DNA from: Gloeobacter violaceus PCC 7421
Lineage (GTDB): Bacteria > Cyanobacteriota > Cyanobacteriia > Gloeobacterales > Gloeobacteraceae
Assembly: GCF_000011385.1 (NCBI RefSeq)
Contig: NC_005125.1
Location: forward strand, 434,001-498,000
Reading direction: 5' to 3'
DNA: 64,000 nucleotides
In this document: piece after piece, positions 12,649 through 28,584 of the stretch
Position numbering within the stretch: the stretch's first letter is position 1
Layout of the letters: each line of letters opens with the position of its first letter
Translations under genes and position numbers: made by a program
Notes under the pieces: generated by a model
Told to the model about the DNA's origin: nothing
What the model saw: the letters and a program-made list of their open reading frames with translations, nothing else
The model's database searches: none

Positions 12649-14322
12649 TTAGTTGATGAACACTTGCCCCGCCTTGATGGTCACCGTCATCGGCGCTTCG
12701 ATCGTGATCGAGCCCGTGGCGTCGTCGAGTTTGATAAAACAGCCCCCCGGTGTGCGCAGCTCCATGAACTGGTCGGTCTCGTTGATCTGGATTTGATAAT
12801 TGTCGGCGGTGCGGATGTAGATCCCTTTTTTGTCCGGCGGCGTGTCCTCGTCGGCAAAGCGCAGATAGTGGCCGACACGGGTCTTCATCGTGCGCAACTT
12901 CACCGGGGTGAGCGAATCGTCCACCGTCTCGGGGGTGTCGTCCTTGCCGTTCCAGACGCCGCCCACCACGTAGGGGCGGTGGATGTCGCCGTGCTCGAAG
13001 CAGACGAGCACTTCGTCGTTGACCTCCGGCATCCAGTAGATGCCGTGCTTGGGTCCGGCGCCGGGGCCGACGACACGCGCCCAATTGCTCTCGTGCTCCT
13101 CGGTGAGGGTGGGAAATTTCACTTTCACCCGCCCCATGCCCTCGGGGTCTTTGTTGTTGGTGACGATGCCCACCAGGTTGGTCTGGCCGGGTTTGAGCTT
13201 GGGCTGGGGCGACAACCCCGTCATCAGATTGCCGCCGCGGGTGCCGCGCACGCTGAATTCGGTGGTGTAGACCAGGTCGTGGTAGAGGTGGCGCGCGTCG
13301 GTGACGTAATAATCGCCCGTCAGCTTTTCGCCCAATCCGGTGAGCTGCACCAGCCGCCCCGGCCGTACCTTCGGCTCGCCCTCGGCGCGGGCGTCGGCAA
13401 AGATATATTCGCCTCCCATCTCGTCGCAGATAGCCTGGGCCATGGTGTCGGCCTCCTGGGCGTTGAAGACGGGATGATCGACCACGACCAGCTTCGGTTG
13501 GAGGTCGAACTGGCTATTGGAGGAACTGCCCGGTTCGTAACCGGTCTTGGTGACCACCTGTTCGCTCTGGGCGGTGGCGACGATCGTCTTTTTCTCGATG
13601 TAATCCCAGCTGCGCACCTCGACGGAACTCACCTGCTCAGCCGTGCTCATGCGCACACGAAAGGCATTCAGCCGCACACCCCAGCGCAGTTGCACCGGCT
13701 CGATCTGCCGCGGCCGGTGGAAGTGCACCTGTTCGTCCTGCACAAAAAACTCGAACCCGATGCGCGCCGCCCGTTCGCGCAAAAACGCCATGTTGGTCTG
13801 GTTTTCTTGAAAGACATAGTCGTGGGGGATGCCGCTTTCTTCGATCTCGCCGCCGGCCTGCAGGCCCACCTCCGCCACGATCTTGCGGACAATGTCGCTG
13901 TCGGTCATGTTGACGAACGAACGGTTGAAGCGGCCCTTGTGCAGCCGATGGGACATGTCGTAGCCGCGCAGAACCATCGGGGCGGAGGGATCTTCGGTGA
14001 AGTGGGTCTCGATGCCGGTAATCTCACCCACCAGCAGCTTCGGCAGGGCGTTGTCCGCCATGAACTCCGGCGCGGTCGTGGTGGCGGCGCGAAACCCGAA
14101 GGTAATCTTTGCACCGACTTTGAGGGCCGGGTGGTTGATCCAGTGGTGGATGTCGCGCATCCGGCCCGGGGTGAAGGGGTTGTGCAGGATGAGCGTAAAG
14201 GCGTCGGGCAGGTGCAGGCTCTCCTCGACACAGATCTGCTGGGTGCTGATGACGAGCTGATCGGTGTCCTCGGCGCTCATCCCGTCGAGGGTGATATTGG
14301 GCTTCGAGTTGTACTTTGGCAT
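12649..14322 (-). CDS. VgrG-like spike protein of a contractile injection system (Pvc8/Afp8 type)
   Basis: Predicted trimeric tip hub and needle that sits under the inner tube and pierces the target. The protein is 557 residues. The N-terminal two-thirds is the phage late-control D fold, with the conserved stretch around IPHDYVFQENQTNMAFL and LRERAARIGFEFFV. An OB-fold gp5-like domain follows (LVGIVTNNKDPEGMGRVKVKF to WMPEVNDEVLVCFEHGD). The C-terminus is a short beta-helix-type spike (GSITIEAPMTVTIKAGQVFIN). No effector extension is fused to the tip. It is the last gene of the minus-strand CIS block, 42 bases after the gp53-like gene. Confidence 0.92.
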   Translation of the reverse strand: MPKYNSKPNITLDGMSAEDTDQLVISTQQICVEESLHLPDAFTLILHNPFTPGRMRDIHHWINHPALKVGAKITFGFRAATTTAPEFMADNALPKLLVGEITGIETHFTEDPSAPMVLRGYDMSHRLHKGRFNRSFVNMTDSDIVRKIVAEVGLQAGGEIEESGIPHDYVFQENQTNMAFLRERAARIGFEFFVQDEQVHFHRPRQIEPVQLRWGVRLNAFRVRMSTAEQVSSVEVRSWDYIEKKTIVATAQSEQVVTKTGYEPGSSSNSQFDLQPKLVVVDHPVFNAQEADTMAQAICDEMGGEYIFADARAEGEPKVRPGRLVQLTGLGEKLTGDYYVTDARHLYHDLVYTTEFSVRGTRGGNLMTGLSPQPKLKPGQTNLVGIVTNNKDPEGMGRVKVKFPTLTEEHESNWARVVGPGAGPKHGIYWMPEVNDEVLVCFEHGDIHRPYVVGGVWNGKDDTPETVDDSLTPVKLRTMKTRVGHYLRFADEDTPPDKKGIYIRTADNYQIQINETDQFMELRTPGGCFIKLDDATGSITIEAPMTVTIKAGQVFIN

Positions 14323-14364: not shown

Positions 14365-14931
14365 CTAACCGGTCGGGGTGCGGGCGCTGCGCGAATCTGT
14401 CTGCCGGTTGGCCGCCCCGGCGTTGTCCCCCTGGGAGCCCGCGGCGATGTCGTCCACCTCCTGGAGCTTGAGGGTGATCATCGCCCGCACCGGATCGCCG
14501 TTGGGCAGAAACATCGTGTAATTGTAGGTCAGTGTGGTGACCACGCAGCGCAACTGGATGTTGGAGCCCATCGTGAACATGTAGACCAGAGGCCGTTTGC
14601 GGTTGAGCAGGCCGCCGTCGGCGGCTCCGTCCGCACCGGCGGTCGCATCGGAGACCTGTTTGGGGGAGACGGCGTCCTTGAGCGCATCGATATAGGACTG
14701 GCAGGAGGAGCGCGACTCGTAGGTGTCGATGAGCATGTTCTCGATTGTCACCTGGTAAGGTTTGACGCCTTTGTAGTCGGTGCTGGGCAGGGTGTCGTTG
14801 TTGCCGACCGAACCTTTGTTTTCTTTCCACTCCACCGTGCGCGTAAACGAGATGGCGCTCGGGTTGTACAAGAACGTGATCGTCGAGCCGCCGCCTTCTT
14901 GGGGGACGAGTTGGGCCTTTACGAGGGTCAT
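14365..14931 (-). CDS. Contractile injection system hub adaptor (gp53/Pvc7-like, no LysM)
   Basis: A 188-residue protein that in related particles links the tail tube to the spike. The opening (MTLVKAQLVPQEGGG, FLYNPSAISFTRTVEWKE) is typical of the CIS tube/adaptor N-terminal domain, where a membrane-protein-like YNP-x-S-I motif recurs. The region around TMGSNIQLRCVVTTLTYNYTMF continues that fold. Pvc7/Afp7 proteins often carry a C-terminal LysM domain; here the tail is a short Gly/Ala/Ser-rich stretch without one. GGAG lies eight bases before the ATG. It is placed between the giant repeat protein and the spike, matching the usual adaptor-then-spike order. Confidence 0.87.
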   Translation of the reverse strand: MTLVKAQLVPQEGGGSTITFLYNPSAISFTRTVEWKENKGSVGNNDTLPSTDYKGVKPYQVTIENMLIDTYESRSSCQSYIDALKDAVSPKQVSDATAGADGAADGGLLNRKRPLVYMFTMGSNIQLRCVVTTLTYNYTMFLPNGDPVRAMITLKLQEVDDIAAGSQGDNAGAANRQTDSRSARTPTG

Positions 14932-14964: not shown

Positions 14965-24798
<9,834 letters not shown>

Positions 24799-24800
24799 CG

Positions 24801-25331
24801 CTAATTACTGCCGAAGTAGCCGCTCGCGTCGCGGGTCAGGTTCATCATCGCCCCGCCGCCGCCGCTTCTCTGGATGCGCAGGCCCTCGTAGGAGACGATC
24901 ACCTGCTCAATGGCCGCCGTCGCGTTCTGCGCGGGCAGGTTCGCCATCAACTGCGGACCTTTGAAGCCGGTCACCACCGCGCCGATCAGGGTCCAGCACT
25001 GCATGGTTTCGCCCGCCTGATTGAACAACACGATGTTGATATTGCGCCGTTTGGTCGGGGTGGCCGGATCGAGCGACCCGTAGGCCCACTCCCAAAAAGT
25101 GAGGCTGTCGGTGATGCCGCGCTGGAGGGTGACATCGCTGTAGGTCACCGGCCCCAGGTAGATGCGCTCCTGCTCGTTGACCCCGCCCTCGGCGTAGGAA
25201 TTTTTCTTCATCGTGAAGCCGATGCCGCTGCACTGCATGAACGACGCGGTCAACTCGCTGTCGATCTCGACGTAGAAGCGGTTGGGCAGAACGTAGTTCA
25301 GTTCGTGGACGACGTTGCCGTTTTGTGCCAT
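24801..25331 (-). CDS. Contractile injection system tail tube protein (gp19/Pvc5-like)
   Basis: Inner tube subunit of 176 residues, usual for the T4 gp19/Hcp-related tube family. The motifs NYVLPNRFYVEID, MQCSGIGFTMKK and RNINIVLFNQAGETMQCWTL are typical; the family forms stacked hexameric rings inside the sheath. The ATG at 25329-25331 overlaps the upstream stop as TGATG, which suggests translational coupling; a TTG one codon earlier is not needed. Only one tube gene is seen here, while complete CIS loci usually have two or three tube paralogues, so others may lie elsewhere. Confidence 0.92.
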   Translation of the reverse strand: MAQNGNVVHELNYVLPNRFYVEIDSELTASFMQCSGIGFTMKKNSYAEGGVNEQERIYLGPVTYSDVTLQRGITDSLTFWEWAYGSLDPATPTKRRNINIVLFNQAGETMQCWTLIGAVVTGFKGPQLMANLPAQNATAAIEQVIVSYEGLRIQRSGGGGAMMNLTRDASGYFGSN

Positions 25332-25606
25332 CAAAAGTGCCCCCCGTAGTCGCGTCCGCGCTCGCGGTGCCGATCCAGCTCGTCGCGCATCAGTTCGTAG
25401 ACCCGGTCGCTCAAGCGGCGCATCACCAGGTGGCTTTTGAGCACTTTGCCCGCCTGCAGCATCAGCGCCAGTTTTTGCTTGTTGCGCGTCTGCAAAGCGG
25501 CGCCTGCGGCCGTGCCTGCGGCCGAGTGCGCCTGAGCGGCGGGTGCCTGAACGGGTGAGGCGTGGAACCGGGTTTCGAGCTGGGGCGGTTTGGAGTTGAA
25601 ATCCAT
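25331..25606 (-). CDS. Small CIS-locus protein with conserved basic helical tail
   Basis: A 91-residue protein of unknown function, translationally coupled to the tube gene through TGATG. The first half is Ala/Gln-rich and probably flexible. The C-terminal half is helical and ends LSDRVYELMRDELDRHRERG. This matches the end of the giant protein (LAQEIYGLLRQRLEVERERSG) in the pattern L-x3-[IV]-Y-x-L-[LM]-R-x2-L-x3-R-E-R. Tails like this recur in other CIS-locus proteins, so the motif may bind one common particle component. It is not a Pvc6/DUF5908 protein by eye. The family cannot be named with certainty. Confidence 0.72.
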   Translation of the reverse strand: MDFNSKPPQLETRFHASPVQAPAAQAHSAAGTAAGAALQTRNKQKLALMLQAGKVLKSHLVMRRLSDRVYELMRDELDRHRERGRDYGGHF

Positions 25607-25703: not shown

Positions 25704-26339
25704 TCAGGCGATGGCCACCTTGAACTGCACCAGGTTCTCGCGGCCCAACTGCAGCGTGTCGCCGTCCACCAGCTGGTAGGAAACCCCCGGGGTGAGCGGT
25801 TGGCCGTTGACGAAGGTGCCGTTGCGGCTGTTGTTGTCGGTGATCGTGTAGGTGGCGTAGGCGGCGTCCCAGAGGATACAGGCGTGGGGCCGCGAGATGA
25901 CCTGATCGTTGGGGATGCCGGTCAGATCAATTTCGGGAGCCGGTTTGACCGTGCCGCCGCGCCGGCCGATATAACTTTCGTCGCCCGGCGCTGCGAATTC
26001 GCGGCCGATGAGCGCGTGCACCAGTTTGAGCGTCGGCCGCCCCTGGGAGGCAGGCGGCGCGGCGGCCGGGGCGACCGGCGGCTGTGGGTAGGCGGCGGGA
26101 GCGGGCTGTGGGTACGCGGGCGGCGGGGCGGCCGGCGCGTAGACGTGCGGCGGCGGGGCCGGCTGCTGGTAGGGCGAGACGATAGGCGGCGGCGGTGGAG
26201 CGGCGGCGACCGGGGCGGCGCTGCCGCTGCGCACGACGTTACCGAGGGGTGTGCCGCACATCGGGCAGACCTGGGCGGTGTTGGGCAGTGTCCGGTTGAA
26301 GTATTCGCACTGCGGATTGGGGCACTTGGGAGCGGCCAT
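25704..26339 (-). CDS. Zinc-ribbon / FHA-domain protein
   Basis: A 211-residue cytosolic protein. The N-terminus is a zinc ribbon (CPNPQCEYF, then CPMCGTPLG). A Pro/Ala-rich linker runs from about 35 to 105. A C-terminal FHA domain follows, with YIGRRGG, ISRPHACI and NNSRNGTFVNG, the phosphothreonine-binding residues of the fold. FHA domains read Thr phosphorylation by Ser/Thr kinases. It lies 11 bases downstream of the pseudokinase gene and about 100 bases before the CIS structural genes, so it is probably in the same transcript. Whether it controls the CIS is an inference from context and from FHA proteins of type VI secretion. Confidence 0.87.
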   Translation of the reverse strand: MAAPKCPNPQCEYFNRTLPNTAQVCPMCGTPLGNVVRSGSAAPVAAAPPPPPIVSPYQQPAPPPHVYAPAAPPPAYPQPAPAAYPQPPVAPAAAPPASQGRPTLKLVHALIGREFAAPGDESYIGRRGGTVKPAPEIDLTGIPNDQVISRPHACILWDAAYATYTITDNNSRNGTFVNGQPLTPGVSYQLVDGDTLQLGRENLVQFKVAIA

Positions 26340-26350
26340 GGCGGTACCGT

Positions 26351-28441
26351 TTACTTGTTGGACAGCGGCAGTGGGACGACGCCCAGTTTTTCAAGATACT
26401 GCTGGCCCTGGCGGGTCGTCAGCAATTCGGCAAATTTGAGGCCGGAGGTCGGCCGGCTGTTGTCGCGGGGATAGACCACGGCCAGGGGAAAACCGAGCGG
26501 GTAGCGCCGCTGGGTGAACGCCCCGGCGTCGAGACGAAAGGCCTTGGCGCACAGGTTGACGTTGGGGTGGATGGGCCGGCCGTCGAAGCGCGGGTCGGTC
26601 TGCACCAGCGGCTGGATTTCGCCTTTGCCCTGATCGAGGGCCAGCGGATAGCCCGAGCACTGGTCGAAGGCTTTGACCAGGGTGCTGAAGGCGATGATCC
26701 CCGAGCGGTTGTTGTCGAATTCGGGCAGCACCAGCCGCTGGGTCTCCTTGGTGGGCAACACCGTCGCCAGGCTGCGGAAGGTGGCGACGCGCTGGGGGTC
26801 GTTCCCCAGTACCAGCCGCTCGAACATGCGCACAGCCTCCGGTTCGGTGGGGGCAAACAGTCGCACCGGCAGATCCGGCCCGCCCAGATCCTTCCAGTTG
26901 CGGACCTTGCCGGTGTAGAGCTTCTGGAGATTTTCGAGGCTGATCTTGCCCCCCAGGGCGTTGGGCAGGTTGCGCGGTTTTTTGCTGAAGGCGACGTAGA
27001 CCACCAGCCCATCGATGGCGATGGGCTTGCTCTCCAGTTCATCGCTGAGATCTTCGGTCAGGCTGGTGATCGCAAAGTCGGTGCGGATAAGCTGCACCAG
27101 CCGCACCGCTTCGCTCTCGGTGTCGATCTTGGGGGAGACGACGGGCGCAAAGCGCATCTCGACGCGGGCGCGCGGCTCGGTGAGCAGGTCGACAAGCCGC
27201 TGGTCGTCGGCGGGTTTGCCCTGCAATAGATAGCTCCAGGTGCCGTCGCGCTCGGCGGCGTAACTAAATGTGCCCTCCGGCACGCCGCTCACTTCCGCAA
27301 AGCTCGCCACGCGCGTGTCGATCTGGGGCGGCTTCGGGAACCAGCGCTCCAGTTGGGGCCAAAAAATAAACAACAATCCGGCGATCATCGCGAGCAATGC
27401 GAACGCCAACAGCGCAAAAAGGGTCAGGTTGGCTTTGTCCTTTTTGTCGTACTCGACCGGGGCGCTCACCGCTGCGAATTGCTCTTCTCCCGGCAATTTG
27501 AGCAAAGCCGCCCGCGCCGCCTCGGCCGTCTCGAAGGGCACATCGAGGCCCATCAGCCGGTACAGGTACTCCTGCAGACGCGGCTCCACGGCCGGCCACT
27601 GCTGCGGGTCGCGCGGGTCGAAGTAGCCGCCGGTGGCCGGGTTGACCAGTTGACCGGTCAGCAGAAAATACGCCACGTACCCGAGGGCGATCAGATCGTG
27701 CTCGGGCAGCGGCTCGTCGGCCACCGCCGGAGGCGGGTCAAACAACTGCTCCCAAAGGGCCAGATCGCAGACGTAGACAAAAAACTGCGCCCCGCCCCGG
27801 CTGATGAGCAAACTGTCGAGGGTGAGATGTCCGTGGGCGAGACCCGGCTGCACCTGGCCTGAGGGCAACCGAAATTTCTGGCTGTGCAGAAACTGCAGCG
27901 ATTGGAGCACCTGGTTGAGCACCGAGCGCACCTGGGCCGCGTTCATCGGGCCGCTTTCGGCCAGATGCCGCGCGAGGGTGGGCGACGCTTCGAGCGCGCC
28001 TTTGGTCACCAGATAACACCGTTCGCCCTGCTCGTCGGCGATCGCTTCCCAGGGGCTGACCAGCCGAAAGTCCTGGTTTTTGCCGTCGGCGGGCAATAGA
28101 CCCGCCACCCGCTTGAAGGCGTCCTTGCGCTGGCGGGTCTCGGCTTTGTTGAAGCAGCGGCTGGGAAGCAGGTACTCCTTGACGACGCACGGCTGGTTGT
28201 CCCCCGCCTGGATCGCCTGGTAGAGCCTGCCCATGCCGCGGGTGCCCACGAACTTGACGATCCGGTAGGTACCACGCGTGCCGCGGATCTCGGATTTTTC
28301 GGCCAGCAACGTCGGAAAGCCGCATTCCTGGCAGAATTTGGCCCCGGGGATCTGCTGGGCGGTCTGTACGAGCACGTCGCAATTGAGCGGCATGTTGCGC
28401 GAACAGCGGTAAGCCTTGTAGGAAGTTTCAAACAGTTGCAT
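26351..28441 (-). CDS. Pseudokinase - TM - PstS-like binding-domain fusion
   Basis: A 696-residue membrane protein. The start at 28439-28441 has GGAG eight bases upstream; a 28-codon upstream extension has no such site. The N-terminus has paired cysteines (YRCSRNMPLNC, FCQECG), probably a zinc ribbon. A kinase fold follows with a glycine loop (VGTRGMGRLY) and the beta-3 lysine (CVVKEYLLP). However, the catalytic loop reads HGHLTLDS instead of HRDxKPxN and the metal loop reads DLALWE instead of DFG, so phosphotransfer is unlikely. One membrane segment (LFALLAFALLAMIAGLLFIFW) leads to an outside domain of the PstS/PBP-like-2 family (IDGLVVYVAFS, LQKLYTGKVRNWKDLGG). It reads as a sensor coupling an outside ligand to an inside binding platform. 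Confidence 0.85.
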   Translation of the reverse strand: MQLFETSYKAYRCSRNMPLNCDVLVQTAQQIPGAKFCQECGFPTLLAEKSEIRGTRGTYRIVKFVGTRGMGRLYQAIQAGDNQPCVVKEYLLPSRCFNKAETRQRKDAFKRVAGLLPADGKNQDFRLVSPWEAIADEQGERCYLVTKGALEASPTLARHLAESGPMNAAQVRSVLNQVLQSLQFLHSQKFRLPSGQVQPGLAHGHLTLDSLLISRGGAQFFVYVCDLALWEQLFDPPPAVADEPLPEHDLIALGYVAYFLLTGQLVNPATGGYFDPRDPQQWPAVEPRLQEYLYRLMGLDVPFETAEAARAALLKLPGEEQFAAVSAPVEYDKKDKANLTLFALLAFALLAMIAGLLFIFWPQLERWFPKPPQIDTRVASFAEVSGVPEGTFSYAAERDGTWSYLLQGKPADDQRLVDLLTEPRARVEMRFAPVVSPKIDTESEAVRLVQLIRTDFAITSLTEDLSDELESKPIAIDGLVVYVAFSKKPRNLPNALGGKISLENLQKLYTGKVRNWKDLGGPDLPVRLFAPTEPEAVRMFERLVLGNDPQRVATFRSLATVLPTKETQRLVLPEFDNNRSGIIAFSTLVKAFDQCSGYPLALDQGKGEIQPLVQTDPRFDGRPIHPNVNLCAKAFRLDAGAFTQRRYPLGFPLAVVYPRDNSRPTSGLKFAELLTTRQGQQYLEKLGVVPLPLSNK

Positions 28442-28584
28442 TGCGCAACTCCTGCCCGGGCTGGAACCTGTAGTAGAAGAATGCCGGTACTGCCACGGAT
28501 CTAGCCAAGAATCTAACACAGCCATTTTCCCTAGGGAGGTAAGCTGGGCGTGTGCAGCGACCAGCGCCGCGTTGAGAATTGGCC

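Follow-up and report, generated by a model that had tools for sequence, protein, structure and literature searches.

A conserved C-terminal tail shared by a small protein and a giant tape-measure-like protein of cyanobacterial CIS loci

The gene slot between the tube and Cis7 is occupied in phages by the tape-measure protein and in Afp-type systems by the spike plug. The body of phage tape measures is usually, though not universally, largely helical or coiled coil. In published structural work, the C-terminal residues of the 80alpha and T5 tape measures are observed as trimers (PMC10996793); the Alg6 plug, a C-terminal helix that forms a trimer, lies in the spike cavity, contacts Alg7 and Alg8, and is required for assembly (PMC8894135); and Anabaena Cis6 is located like the Alg6 plug (PMC8894136). 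Streptomyces Tme is a tape-measure-related CIS effector whose gene lies just upstream of the baseplate genes and which is said to interact with the spike and the tube initiator (PMC11126660); such tape-measure-related effectors are known from Streptomyces (PMC11126660, PMC13277306). The Streptomyces CIS paper gives a typical tape measure as absent there, and a search of the Anabaena CIS paper returned no mention of one. In the literature searched on tape measures, CIS plugs and the Gloeobacter CIS, an incomplete coverage of these subjects, no description of the tail or of the giant proteins reported here was seen.

The Gloeobacter locus and its gene order across cyanobacteria

The window (the whole 64,000-nucleotide stretch of Gloeobacter violaceus PCC 7421 that was analysed) carries, on its minus strand, the gene order kinase-like/PBP, FHA, small, tube, giant, Cis7, hub (Table 1). 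Elsewhere in the genome of 4,659,019 bases, a locus at 4.30 Mb has sheath, three tube and Pvc16-like genes and one at 1.51 Mb has gp25, J and Tail_P2_I genes, so that the CIS parts (sheath, tubes, initiator, hub, gp25, J-type baseplate) are all present but split over three distant loci. Neither DUF5908 nor a tape-measure candidate besides the giant was seen at these three loci. The kinase-like/PBP fusion and FHA protein also precede the CIS genes in many related loci; the 1.51 Mb locus encodes another FHA protein, and the 4.30 Mb locus has a gene for a protein kinase. Because kinase-like and FHA genes accompany CIS loci, by analogy they suggest that the CIS is under phosphorylation control, for which PpkA and Fha of the T6SS are a precedent.

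Table 1. Features of the CIS locus in the window
Feature	Coordinates	Strand	Basis or remark
Kinase-like protein fused to PBP-like domain	26351-28525	-	Heads the gene order in the window
FHA protein	25704-26339	-	Between the kinase-like/PBP and small-protein genes
Small 91-aa CIS protein (A1 family)	25331..25606	-	In other cyanobacteria, relatives lie directly before the tube gene
Conserved C-terminal tail domain of small protein	25334..25471	-	A1 alignment, AF2 helix; earlier motif at 25358-25414
gp19-like tube protein (Cis5 position)	24801..25334	-	PF06841 E 6.8e-35
Giant 3277-aa Pro/Glu/Ala-rich acidic protein, tape-measure-like	14965..24798	-	Composition; phage tape-measure module in relatives
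Conserved N-terminal PLG box of giant (first 60 aa)	24619..24798	-	[PSTQ]LG counts across giants
Conserved 36-aa C-terminal tail of giant	14968..15075	-	A2 profile E 5.3e-21, AF2 helix; earlier motif at 15001-15057
CIS_tube tube-initiator protein (Cis7 position)	14365..14931	-	PF19266 E 7e-17
Hub/spike protein (Cis8 position)	12649..14322	-	PF04717 E 3e-28, PF05954 E 1.8e-8

A sample of 292 genomes from the phylum contains 13, this genome counted, with relatives of the small protein. When the surroundings in the 12 other genomes were inspected, the giant tail lay between tube and Cis7 in all eight stretches that reach that far; in the other four the contig stretch stops before the tube-Cis7 interval. 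A search of genome contigs with a hub alignment yielded 80 loci, all cyanobacterial, with a Cis7-like gene in 78, of which 75 have more than 400 nt upstream of that gene. A giant tail (E<1e-5) was found in 69 of these 75. The tube gene is visible in 44 of the 69 and is directly preceded by the small protein in 40, giving the order small-tube-giant-Cis7-hub, with tails on both proteins, in 40/44 cyanobacterial loci whose full stretch can be seen. The four loci without the small protein (L116, L147, L149 and L151; Oscillatoria sp. HE19RPO and three Laspinema) encode giants of only 270-325 aa and have no small-protein-like ORF in the kinase-tube gap. Six of the 75 loci fall below the giant-tail cut-off: five (L088, L100, L103, L118, L123) are Cis7-hub modules without a tube match, and the sixth, L135, has a single weak giant-tail match 59 aa from the protein's end. 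The Cis7-hub pairs of those five adjoin conserved proteins of ~550 and ~175 aa. In three classical cyanobacterial loci, a DUF5908 plug gene sits between the tube matches and the Cis7-like match, and in the cyanophage Pan1 the order is tube, chaperone, tape measure, distal tail.

The shared C-terminal tail

The small protein ends in LSDRVYELMRDELDRHRERGRDYGGHF and the giant in LAQEIYGLLRQRLEVERERSGHHYLGRMPW. Translation of the two ORFs places the tails at the C-termini where the initial annotation had put them, and its description of the proteins as otherwise unlike is correct as regards their bodies; the interval under which it reported the motif, 24801-25606, covers the small and tube genes and leaves out the giant's tail. 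The likeness extends past the helix (RERG..Y.G), with a conserved Y-x-G-R extension. The strict, middle, core and loose patterns of that annotation occur in the window (six frames, open frames of at least 50 aa) in two places only, the small protein and the giant. A motif search across CIS loci recovers the tails on both genes, while the exact strict pattern proves narrow (2/70 giants, 2/42 small proteins); a 19-residue core, L-x3-[IV]-Y-x2-L-x3-L-x3-[RK]-E-R, composed post hoc with the sequences already in view and applied in a looser spelling, fits 69/70 giants and 42/42 small proteins. Almost without exception in the cyanobacterial loci, the tail lies a few residues from the C-terminus. AlphaFold2 predicts a helix over residues 59-88 of the small protein (mean pLDDT 93 over 61-80) and over residues 3237-3267 of the giant (pLDDT 96 and 87 in the two middle ten-residue blocks). 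Giants of six loci (L082, L086, L106, L145, L153, L155) have two tandem tail copies, one terminal and the other roughly 50-85 aa earlier.

No family in Pfam, PHROGs or PDB sequences matched the tails or the small protein. The shortest small proteins are of ~48 aa, and those of Nostocales (L074-L143) have a common N-terminal GDxGGTAGYAG motif. In a Leptolyngbyaceae MAG (L133, 2751-3461), the small tail is fused to a Cis7-like CIS_tube domain within a 237-aa ORF; tail and fusion together point to the small protein acting in the same neighbourhood as the giant's putative anchor.

Profiles were built from 13 small-protein tails (A1) and nine giant tails (A2), and scored against 1,960 background C-termini, which come from ORFs of 100 aa or more in the loci retrieved. 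With A1, trained on small tails alone, 69/69 giant tails score over every background C-terminus; with A2, 19/41 small tails exceed the background maximum. Read from sequence, the relation between the tails is therefore clear when the small tails are the query and weaker when the giant tails are. A single profile-profile comparison of A1 with A2 gave a probability of 94.5% (E 8e-8). Within this genome, A1 finds the small gene first (E 1.8e-20) and the giant tail second (E 0.0033); A2 finds the giant first (E about 5e-21), its next match (E 0.14) lying inside an unrelated frame. Among 386 cyanobacterial genomes, A1 has matches in 22 (E<1e-8) and A2 in 23 (E<1e-6), and all 22 genomes with a small tail are among the 23 with a giant tail, the extra one being G116. 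The strong A2 matches share the tube-Cis7 slot, with Cis7 and hub adjacent, in 22/23 genomes; in G352 (L169) the giant tail is near the tube and small genes, and Cis7 and hub were not seen within the stretch fetched. The profiles also cross over: A1 picks up the giant tail at E<=0.01 in three of its 22 genomes (G000, which is this genome, G008 and G060), and A2 picks up the small genes of G008, G278, G167, G125 and G193 with E between 0.01 and 0.2. A weak A2 match in L158, internal to an unrelated frame, was dismissed as chance.

The initial annotation had proposed that the motif is a common docking sequence on two C-termini, which would be undone if it were equally frequent at the ends of unrelated proteins. 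The tails stand far above the 1,960 background C-termini and are conserved across cyanobacteria, and so give good support to a common sequence that may serve in docking. Its wider suggestion, that the motif serves CIS generally as a tag for targeting or packing, was not borne out: strong matches are confined to the small and giant genes and the one Cis7-like fusion. No further protein class had a strong match in the profile searches of the 386 genomes or the scans of fetched loci, nor did either of two DUF4157 proteins in L143.

On a crude measure, small and giant tails from the same locus resemble each other no more than tails paired at random (1827/2000 permutations reach the own-pair score), and this comparison gave no signal of pairwise coevolution between them. 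Because own-locus tails are no closer than cross-locus tails in this crude test, a shared, slowly changing receptor fits better than private pairing.

The giant proteins and the phage tape-measure module

The 42 complete giants are of 270-3277 aa (median 1134.5) and share an architecture of a conserved N-terminal box, a variable, low-complexity, disordered middle and a conserved C-terminal helix. Ser, Pro, Thr and Glu are abundant in them and Cys, Trp and Met nearly absent; Pro makes up ~10% of the pooled residues and 6-20% of each 200-aa stretch of the window giant, in which Asp and Glu reach about 20% against 0-6% for Lys and Arg per stretch. At least two [PSTQ]LG occur within the first 60 aa of 30/42 giants, against 0.11 expected from internal windows. 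Pfam scans of two full-length giants, that of the window included, recognised no domain. Short repeats in the window giant (SLEEQF-like, LTVLRSL) were dropped as a general explanation because they are absent from the five tested giants outside the Gloeobacter pair. Length appears to change quickly: the hubs of the window and of L073 are 98.6% identical, whereas their giants are of 3277 and 2500 aa, a difference of 777 aa that must be read with the caveat that L073 is a MAG scaffold whose repeats may be collapsed. Over all pairs, which are not independent, hub identity and giant length difference have a Spearman correlation of -0.61.

Many Nostocales giants contain GFxxGG and SDTVPAMLTPGEFVIN, which belong to a module of ~60 aa (GxATGG...SDTVPAMLTPGEFVIN) common to phage tape measures and 42/70 giants. 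A profile built from 36 giant segments finds the module in these 42, at a distance of 216-327 aa from the C-terminus; among the 55 giants of which 300 aa or more are available, it finds the module in 36. The L128 segment matches 839 phage records at E<=10, and all 25 matches listed of these 839 are annotated as tape measure, the top one with 57% identity and E 3e-16; the profile itself matches the tape measures of Nodularia phage 2AV2 (1.2e-27) and Pseudanabaena phage Pan1 (1.3e-15). PHROG tape-measure families match module segments with E down to 1.1e-5, and the full L143 giant matches phrog_25241 at 0.0053 over the module residues. By the 36-segment profile, the module is absent from the window giant and L073, and altogether 28/70 giants, the window's own included, lack it, some of the other 27 being partial. 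The window giant thus belongs to the family by its tail, N-terminal box and position, and the sequence homology to tape measures is that of its relatives. No copy of the shared tail was found in the two phage tape measures tested (2AV2 and Pan1, one of these sequences being without its own C-terminus), and a 75-aa piece of the L124 giant, taken at its C-terminal end, had no phage match.

Like the giants, the tape measures of 2AV2, Pan1 and diffocin (CD1366) are large ORFs between the tube and the distal or hub genes, and phage and tailocin tape measures have a published C-terminal helix such as is predicted for the giants; unlike the giants' low-complexity, Pro/Ser/Glu-rich acidic body, judged by composition, theirs is a coiled coil. 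Tme/Sle1 of Streptomyces resembles the giant as a large tape-measure-related CIS protein but is, as described, coiled-coil/transmembrane with an enzymatic or globular C-terminus, where the giants have a putative docking helix and no recognised domain.

The Cis6/Alg6/Afp6 plug has the giant's slot before Cis7 and, as in the giant, a C-terminal helix ending E-R; Cis6 (50 aa) is similar in length to the shortest small proteins. By sequence, DUF5908 corresponds to Cis6/Alg6 (7b5h, E 9.4e-13; 7aef, E 1.7e-6), whereas the tails have neither a DUF5908 match nor the EIREL strand, and the giant is hundreds to thousands of residues longer. PF19265 (DUF5908) matched nothing in the genome at E<=0.1 and none of the 13 A1 sequences at E<=10, and hhalign found no match between the tails and a DUF5908 alignment of only two sequences. 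Among 1,963 C-termini, A1 ranks Alg6 1st and Cis6 70th, and A2 puts none high. We take the Alg6 ranking as a hint and set aside the identification of the tails as DUF5908; position and a weak resemblance link giant and plug tentatively. The tape measure Afp14 of eCIS likewise has a presumed length-control role and differs in its gene position.

A proposed docking helix at the Cis7/Cis8 junction

We favour, with a probability of roughly 0.58, the reading that the shared tail is a docking helix at the Cis7/Cis8 junction, the giant a tape-measure-like protein of the lumen and the small protein a second copy of the helix. Since the giant occupies the tape-measure slot and most relatives carry sequence typical of tail-length rulers, its C-terminal helix probably anchors it at the tip of the injection machine. 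An anchor is also the simplest account of a polar-ended C-terminal helix on a tape-measure-like carrier whose gene neighbours are adjacent Cis7 and Cis8 genes. The helix would hold its carrier where the tube initiator (Cis7) meets the hub/spike (Cis8), docking on the spike, probably as a trimer, as is published for phage and diffocin tape measures and the Alg6/Cis6 plug; the middle, which is long, disordered and acidic, would extend through the tube lumen, and at the far end the N-terminal box would touch the cap. The small protein would most likely bind the giant's site or a neighbouring one, and might form a mixed plug, keep the place until the giant arrives or add an extra anchor. The missing module in the window giant and 27 others, the Pro-rich body, the length shift between near relatives, the two phage tape measures without the tail, the missing profile match to DUF5908 and the absence of the small protein from 4/44 complete loci count against this reading.

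The giant may instead be cargo, a long, disordered effector in the lumen whose tail is a loading anchor on the spike, with the small protein as a cargo or loader using the same anchor; we regard this as possible, though clearly the lesser prospect. A length of 270 to 3277 aa with fast turnover would suit a payload, as would the Streptomyces effectors noted above, and the giant could fill that role because no DUF4157 effector (eCIS_core domain) was matched in the whole genome; yet the two Pfam-scanned giants have no recognised domain, and the protein holds a structural-gene position and is conserved at both ends. Like helices frequently pair, and the strict co-occurrence in 22/22 small-tail genomes among the 386 would follow if the tails bound each other in a hetero-oligomeric coiled coil, with the small protein a dedicated partner or chaperone of the giant C-terminus. 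Such pairing seems improbable when giants without the small protein occur in 4/44 loci and the permutations, crude as they are, give no sign of coevolution. That the tails are generic amphipathic helices, alike by chance or shared composition, has in its favour the shortness of the motif and the commonness of heptad-like charged helices. It is already contradicted at the level of sequence, and we consider it very improbable: 69/69 giant tails outscore the whole background under the small-tail profile, the giant tail is that profile's second-best match in the genome, and conservation runs past the helix into Y-x-G-R.

The docking reading can be carried further, into speculation that we hold doubtful: this CIS lineage may measure or fill its tube with a giant disordered acidic protein, pinned at both ends and having no coiled coil; DUF5908 would have come from an ancestral tape measure reduced to its C-terminus, and the small protein would be the anchor on its own, occupying the site before the giant docks. 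Were the giant a ruler with the diffocin ratio of 817 residues per 1388 Å, tails would range from ~46 nm (271 aa) through ~193 nm (median giant, 1134 aa) to ~557 nm (window).

With their conserved ends, phage tape-measure module and twelve-fold length range, the giants allow a direct test between length control and cargo. Two genes without a name, one for a small CIS protein and one for a giant, gain a family description, and the family offers a concrete tie of phage tape measures to the spike plug of CIS. Set beside the Anabaena paper, a search of which gave no mention of a tape measure, and the Streptomyces paper, in which a typical one is stated to be absent, it bears on how CIS set tail length or hold cargo.
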